The position numbers were made by a program, and so were the translations under genes. Under the pieces are notes generated by a model. It was not told the origin of the DNA and did not search any database. It saw only the letters and a list, made by a program, of their open reading frames with translations. Shown here piece after piece: positions 26,410-27,309 of a stretch of 64,000 bases of DNA. This stretch comes from Parapontixanthobacter aurantiacus (GTDB lineage Bacteria; Pseudomonadota; Alphaproteobacteria; Sphingomonadales; Sphingomonadaceae), in assembly GCF_009827635.1 (NCBI RefSeq), contig NZ_WTYW01000001.1, forward strand, positions 1,382,001-1,446,000, read 5' to 3'. How positions within the stretch are numbered: the stretch's first letter is position 1; each line of letters starts with the position of its first letter.

Positions 26410-26673
26410 ATGCTTCGCAAAATCGGCAGGTTGTTCGTAATTAAGACGCGCTTCGAAGCGTTCCTGATTATCTACGCCCTCGCTCTTGGTGCAATGACCC
26501 GTGGAATCGCCTATCTCGACCAATATCCCGGCTTTGGCGGCTGGTTGCTGGTGACCGCGTGTTCGGGTGCCGTCTTCATGGCGGGCGCTAAGATCCTCGA
26601 TTGCCTCAAATACGAGCAGGCCGAACGCGCAGCGCAGGAAGCTGAGAAAGCGCAGGACAGCTCGTCACGCTGA
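26410..26673 (+). CDS. Small two-helix membrane protein, unknown
   Basis: This is an 87-aa protein with a basic N-terminus, two hydrophobic segments (AFLIIYALALGAMTRGIAYL and WLLVTACSGAVFMAGA) and a charged, Ala/Glu-rich helical tail (EQAERAAQEAEKAQ) likely in the cytoplasm. AAGGAAAGGG precedes the ATG at 26410; the TTG directly before it is an alternative start. I do not recognise a family. Similar small membrane proteins are common between housekeeping units in sphingomonads. The following regulator has its own promoter. Confidence 0.65.
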   Translation: MLRKIGRLFVIKTRFEAFLIIYALALGAMTRGIAYLDQYPGFGGWLLVTACSGAVFMAGAKILDCLKYEQAERAAQEAEKAQDSSSR

Positions 26674-26685
26674 ACTCCGCTATCC

Positions 26686-26750
26686 GTCAACAATCTGTTG
26701 ACATTTATTAGTCAACGTAATATTGACCCGTCCGTCAAGAATATGTTGAC
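26686..26750 (+). promoter_or_regulatory. Three tandem GTCAA-N7-TTGAC operators over the regulator promoter
   Basis: Three 17-base inverted repeats with identical arms occupy 26686-26702, 26711-26727 and 26734-26750, with starts 25 and 23 bases apart. The first is the most symmetric (GTCAACA-ATC-TGTTGAC). Its right arm supplies a TTGACA -35 at 26698-26703, and 17 bases later TATTGA at 26721-26726 could be the -10, inside the second repeat. The third repeat lies in the leader. A GAGG ribosome-binding site follows, eight bases before ATG 26761. The layout suggests autoregulation. Confidence 0.7.
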
Positions 26751-26760
26751 GAGGTCAGTT

Positions 26761-27309
26761 ATGCAAATCAACGAAGAAAAAGCAATTCGCAGCGCGACGG
26801 CAGCGGTCGTTCTGGATTGGGCCGAGCGACGAGAACCGCCAGTCACCGGCGAAACGGCCGAAGGATTGCGCGAAGCGATCGAGGTCGCCCATCTGGTTGC
26901 GGAGGAAGGGCGCGAAGGACTTGCGCGCTGGGTCGATGCCGGCAGGCGCGCAGGACTTAGCTGGAGCGAAATCGGAGACACGCTGGGCATTTCCAAACAG
27001 GCCGCGCAACAACGCTTCAAACCGTCGGACAGCGAGTTCGATGGTAGCCCCGATGTTAAGAACGCGAACATAGTCGTTCGCACCGGAGCCAGCGCTTTTC
27101 ACGAAATGAGGATACTTGAGGAAGAAGGCCAACAGGGGCGCGAACTCATCGATATGGGAGTTCTGAAACTCGTCTTTCGGCAGACCGACACGAACTGGGA
27201 ATATCGCCGGAAGATCGGCCAGTCGCGGATGATCGCGGCCATGCAGCAGGATGGCTGGCAGCACGCTTCGGTGTGGCTGCCCTTCCACTATTTCAAGCGA
27301 CCGCTTTGA
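26761..27309 (+). CDS. Putative HTH transcriptional regulator, probably self-regulated
   Basis: This is a 182-aa protein with an N-terminal helical region, a helix-turn-helix-like segment near residues 68-85 (LSWSEIGDTLGISKQAAQQRF, shown here in part: WSEIGDTLGISKQAAQQ) and a C-terminal domain of about 85 residues with no family I recognise (MGVLKLVFRQTDTNWEYRRK). The HTH resembles sigma-region-4-like motifs. ATG 26761 is preferred over the open frame from 26698 because it has a GAGG site and because the upstream codons are built from operator repeats. Three palindromes over its promoter suggest that it binds there. Confidence 0.65.
   Translation: MQINEEKAIRSATAAVVLDWAERREPPVTGETAEGLREAIEVAHLVAEEGREGLARWVDAGRRAGLSWSEIGDTLGISKQAAQQRFKPSDSEFDGSPDVKNANIVVRTGASAFHEMRILEEEGQQGRELIDMGVLKLVFRQTDTNWEYRRKIGQSRMIAAMQQDGWQHASVWLPFHYFKRPL

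Follow-up and report, generated by a model that had tools for sequence, protein, structure and literature searches.

What reads the three palindromes in front of a small helix-turn-helix (HTH) gene of Parapontixanthobacter aurantiacus, and what does the product of that gene do for the cell? In the window (the 64,000 nucleotides analysed here), GTCAA-N7-TTGAC occurs three times with start-to-start spacings of 25 and 23 bp, all three copies being exact, just as an earlier sequence-only reading of this DNA had reported. The gene very probably encodes an HTH autorepressor of the ClpC2/RelI type, a description that takes in its HTH family, its operator and the repression of its own synthesis. The features on which this rests are collected in Table 1.

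Table 1. Features of the autorepressor locus (positions in the window).
Feature	Position	Strand	Basis
Operator 1, GTCAACAATCTGTTGAC	26686..26702	.	Exact match; kept in all aligned orthologues
Candidate -35, TTGACA, within operator 1	26698..26703	+	Sequence; geometry as in ClpC2-type promoters (PMC10030653)
Operator 2, GTCAACGTAATATTGAC	26711..26727	.	Exact match; 25-bp register kept in most orthologues
Candidate -10, TATTGA, within operator 2, 17-bp spacer, weak	26721..26726	+	Sequence, orthologue alignment
Operator 3, GTCAAGAATATGTTGAC	26734..26750	.	Exact match; ~22 bp kept in most orthologues
Shine-Dalgarno, GAGG	26751..26754	+	Sequence
Autorepressor CDS (predicted), 182 aa, ATG start	26761..27309	+	Sequence, ORF list; orthologues
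N-terminal helical HTH, ClpC2/RelI type, residues 1-90	26761..27030	+	PDB profile matches, hhalign, AF2 helices
Predicted recognition helix, KQAAQQRF, residues 79-86	26995..27018	+	QAAQQRF invariant in alignment A1; AF2 helix 79-86
C-terminal DUF2812-like domain, residues 103-182, predicted tandem b-a-b-b	27067..27306	+	Pfam, AF2, hhalign

The three operators cover the stretch from the -35 to the Shine-Dalgarno, and the third ends directly 5′ of the latter. The -35 supplied by the first copy, as the earlier reading proposed, is a consensus match. The same reading placed the second copy over the -10; such an overlap is plausible, but the hexamer is weak and a promoter scanner run on the window promoter reported no promoter, this candidate included. 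Sphingomonad promoters in general have nATTGA at the 17-bp position, again a weak match. Among actinobacterial site pairs, TA occupies spacer positions 3-4 in 29 of 37 downstream sites, which puts a TANNNT hexamer at a distance of 17-18 bp from the upstream site's TTGAC, indicating that the operators there contain both promoter elements. A longer ORF beginning with TTG inside operator 1 is also listed for the window gene, but that start is unlikely because GAGG stands before the ATG. The gene is monocistronic, with no small ORF between operators and coding sequence. Directly 5′ of the array (26410-26673) lies an ORF for an 88-aa predicted membrane protein, which we left out of the system because it is kept in only two relatives (L015, L019), both with shared synteny.

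Autoregulated HTH proteins commonly control wider regulons, and the window protein could be a conventional regulator of that kind, acting mainly at degenerate sites elsewhere while the triple array merely holds its own level constant. The genome does not favor this. The sequence-only reading had looked to other targets bearing the same 17-base site, yet the three copies in the window are the only exact ones in the whole 2.9-Mb genome (a reversed control pattern gives two). Allowing one mismatch yields 34 matches, fewer than the 41 of the control and thus no excess outside the array, and a pair of sites at 25-bp spacing with up to three mismatches occurs genome-wide only here (control, 0). No regulon elsewhere in the genome was found by the exact, one-mismatch or tandem-pair searches. 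We therefore regard a conventional regulator as improbable, although of the competing explanations it fares best.

That the gene is a ClpC2/RelI-type autorepressor is supported by the conservation of its promoter. Had the repeats been missing upstream of orthologues, the earlier reading would have counted itself refuted; instead, the array stands 5′ of the gene in all 27 intact sphingomonad orthologues. Three sites in a fixed register (25, then ~22) are present in 25 of these, some with mismatches, and the two divergent exceptions (L031, L033) keep site 1 alone as an exact copy, plus degenerate sites. The common register counted from the start codon is -74/-49/-27, that is, 25 then 22, and many orthologues have a mismatch in one half-site of site 2 or 3. 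In an alignment of 28 upstream regions, the window counted in, operator columns mostly carry 1.1-2.0 bits and bases outside or between the sites mostly <0.4 bits. Neither spacing, 25 or 22 bp, amounts to a whole number of helical turns, which makes cooperative contacts less than obvious.

A search of 396 Sphingomonadales genomes located the site pair in 8 and the gene in 7, with both present in 6 (Fisher P 4e-11). The gene-only case (L105, genome G458) is a copy broken by or fused to a transposase ORF; the orthologue at L034 is also interrupted by one. The two arrays found without the HTH gene also have an explanation. One consists of two GTCAA-N7-TTGAC sites 29 bp apart in the promoter of genes read as HigB/HigA-like, in a sphingomonad lacking the HTH gene (L092, 1501-1546). 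The other is a 29-bp minisatellite of GTCAACTTCCTGTTGAC copies immediately 5′ of nusG (L089, 1501-1575). A search around the sphingomonad loci found no conserved partner gene; most orthologues have no common neighbors, and the flanking DNA is not conserved. Since the site pair and the gene co-occur while the neighbors vary, the module as judged from these genomes is gene plus operator, patchily distributed. A contig labelled Bacillus sp. 2B10 (L017) also bears the sphingomonad gene and array, probably through contamination.

The HTH is not the orphan it was first taken for. A profile of 39 homologues matches RelI (9sdc, E 1.7e-14), its closest solved homologue, and the N-terminal fragment of ClpC2 (8ada, E 9.7e-7), and hhalign of the sphingomonad HTH against that of ClpC2 gives 99.6%. 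By these profile comparisons the window HTH is a member of the ClpC2/RelI family. Residue R62, invariant in alignment A1, aligns to ClpC2 R57, which is required for dimerization (PMC10030653). ClpC2 (Rv2667) of mycobacteria represses its own gene, binds its promoter in EMSA and is relieved of repression by cyclomarin A; its operator, CGTCAAC-n5-GTTGACG, commonly stands in repeated copies across the -35 and -10 (PMC10030653). The window gene has the same arrangement, with tandem GTCAA-N7-TTGAC sites over its own promoter; the extra C/G pair of the N5 form is present on both arms of site 1, on the left arm of site 2 and on the right arm of site 3. The two differ in geometry, as actinobacterial operators usually number two and are spaced at 28-29 bp, compared with three at 25/22 bp in sphingomonads. 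Self-repression is demonstrated for ClpC2 (PMC10030653) and predicted for the window protein. The array fixed in position 5′ of orthologues supports the autoregulation that the sequence-only reading had proposed, and so does the binding of the same palindrome by ClpC2, a characterized HTH homologue, at the promoter of its own gene.

The association of operator and HTH extends well beyond sphingomonads. Of the 79 loci at which a homologous HTH is encoded, 72 have an exact site no more than 450 bases upstream, and at one further locus (L041) two sites lie farther upstream. In all, 35 kb of upstream sequence holds 140 sites, compared with 2 in 417 kb elsewhere, both of them the L041 pair; eight scrambled palindromes gave no match at these loci. 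Four loci (L071, L076, L083, L084) have GTCAA-N6-TTGAC in place of the N7 form. Because the peptide KQAAQQRF served in part to retrieve the actinobacterial set, the conservation of this helix there carries no independent weight, whereas the operator association does. The operator stands 5′ of this HTH in Actinomycetota, Sphingomonadales, Deinococcus plasmids and some viral contigs, among varied neighbors.

What follows the HTH varies. In alignment A2, 31 of 46 proteins have a Clp_N domain there, while in Kineococcus, Arthrobacter, Streptomyces and Deinococcus the place is taken by a DUF2812-like domain. At other loci the HTH has a toxin partner of BrnT/RelS-like type instead, and short proteins, L077 among them, have nothing after the HTH. 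In actinobacteria and Deinococcus ficus (L035-L039, L041, L158-L161), the operator is followed by an ORF for a small (~76-95 aa) hydrophobic, probably membrane, protein and directly then by HTH-DUF2812; this ORF is absent from sphingomonads.

The C-terminal part of the window protein, which the first reading could fit to no family, is a distant DUF2812-like domain common to actinobacterial and Deinococcus proteins. Pfam DUF2812 (PF11193) scores 16.4 bits against residues 115-180, under the 27.8 gathering cut-off, which leaves the domain outside the Pfam family proper, and 16 of 39 alignment members match DUF2812 with E values of 0.5 or below, the best being 2.4e-4. AlphaFold2 models residues 103-182 with a pLDDT of 93.5 in the order b-a-b-b-b-a-b-b. 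A sequence-level internal repeat found no support (hhalign probability 0.75%), although the predicted secondary structure repeats. An NCBIfam search gave no match. Foldseek and VIA-align, run with the full model and with this domain alone, found no convincing structural relative (best domain Z 4.8 over 41 residues), and for this reason we propose no ligand class from the fold. Against the corresponding domain of actinobacterial HTH-DUF2812-like proteins, hhalign gives 99.5%, and these relatives share both domains with the window protein at 99.5% each. Against the C-terminal domain of ClpC2 it gives 0.2%, and neither the window protein nor alignment A1 gave a Clp_N match. By profile, then, the domain is only distantly DUF2812-like and is unrelated to the Clp_N-like domain with which ClpC2 binds cyclomarin A. 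The window protein is thus not a ClpC2 proper. Stand-alone HTH-DUF2812 fusions have been named among RelI homologues, with no operator or function reported, and RelI homologues were described as almost confined to Actinomycetes (PMC13284704). Those fusions probably have the same architecture as the window protein, which differs in its sphingomonad branch, its triple operator and the lack of a small membrane-protein gene between operator and regulator.

Because the same operator occurs with unrelated C-terminal domains, the HTH should be the part that reads it. The ClpC2 study instead proposed that a helix in the C-terminal domain contacts DNA, on the strength of a double mutant that bound less well, and its crystal structures span residues 4-72 and 94-252 (PMC10030653). 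Judging from an alignment with the ClpC2-like L056, the QAAQQRF helix would fall between these two constructs.

RelI itself, the antitoxin of M. tuberculosis RelS-RelI (9sdc, PMC13284704), is an 85-aa protein encoded with its toxin. As its closest solved homologue is RelI, the window protein might belong to an antitoxin-like addiction module whose toxin has been lost or hidden. Three RelSI-like loci (L078, L080, L081) bear the same operator before a small ORF, and that of L080 (2651-2905) scores as a BrnT toxin (E 8e-6, below the Pfam cut-off); judging from small-ORF similarity, L081 (~2600-2836) has a toxin partner too, and L078 (~2653-2893) perhaps does. However, no RelS/BrnT-like toxin gene is a conserved neighbor of the sphingomonad gene, which is monocistronic and whose product has an additional conserved domain, making a degenerate addiction module very unlikely. 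At the three RelSI-like loci, the small ORF sits between the tandem array and the RelI-like HTH gene. RelSI-like operons therefore probably autoregulate through the GTCAA-N7-TTGAC operator, while in M. tuberculosis no inverted repeats were reported upstream (PMC13284704).

Among 38 viral contigs found by the array alone (L119-L156), the HTH adjoins the array in 10. It is absent in the other 28, where the arrays have spacings of 21, 22, 26, 30 and others, and therefore other repressors use the same palindrome. A search of annotated phages found no homologue of the full-length protein. The idea that an unrelated repressor binds the palindromes, linked to the HTH gene by shared ancestry only, could draw on these 28 arrays and on L089 and L092, but it is scarcely credible given that the pairing recurs among varied neighbors from Actinomycetota to viral contigs and that ClpC2 binds the site in vitro (PMC10030653).

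For the ClpC2/RelI-type autorepressor that we favor, the dimeric HTH protein would sit on the three sites and bar RNA polymerase from the promoter. Once the DUF2812-like domain bound a ligand or partner, the protein would leave the operators, the gene would be derepressed and more of the same protein would be made. The protein itself is most likely the output, since the genome has no other recognizable site and the locus no conserved partner gene; it may act as a sensor or sponge, as ClpC2 does for cyclomarin. We put forward this ligand or sponge role tentatively, on the model of ClpC2, although the window protein lacks the domain with which ClpC2 binds its ligand. In the same provisional spirit, HTH and tandem operator may together form a portable self-sensing cassette, spread over at least three phyla and some viral contigs and fitted with exchangeable C-terminal sensors of Clp_N, DUF2812-like or toxin-binding type, or with none. 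Recognition would then lie in the HTH rather than in the proposed C-terminal helix of ClpC2, and the sphingomonad version would be a sense-and-sequester protein for some compound.

These results tie an unannotated proteobacterial gene to a characterized antibiotic-sensing autorepressor and predict its binding sites to the base. A natural domain swap, in which the same HTH and operator are joined to an unrelated C-terminal domain, would place DNA recognition in the HTH, contradicting the published ClpC2 model of contact by the C-terminal domain (PMC10030653). A further prediction is that RelS-RelI-like toxin-antitoxin operons, previously without a known operator, are autoregulated. Operator and HTH match those of ClpC2 while the sensing part differs, which points to a single pair of switch and reader that various bacteria have combined with different sensors.
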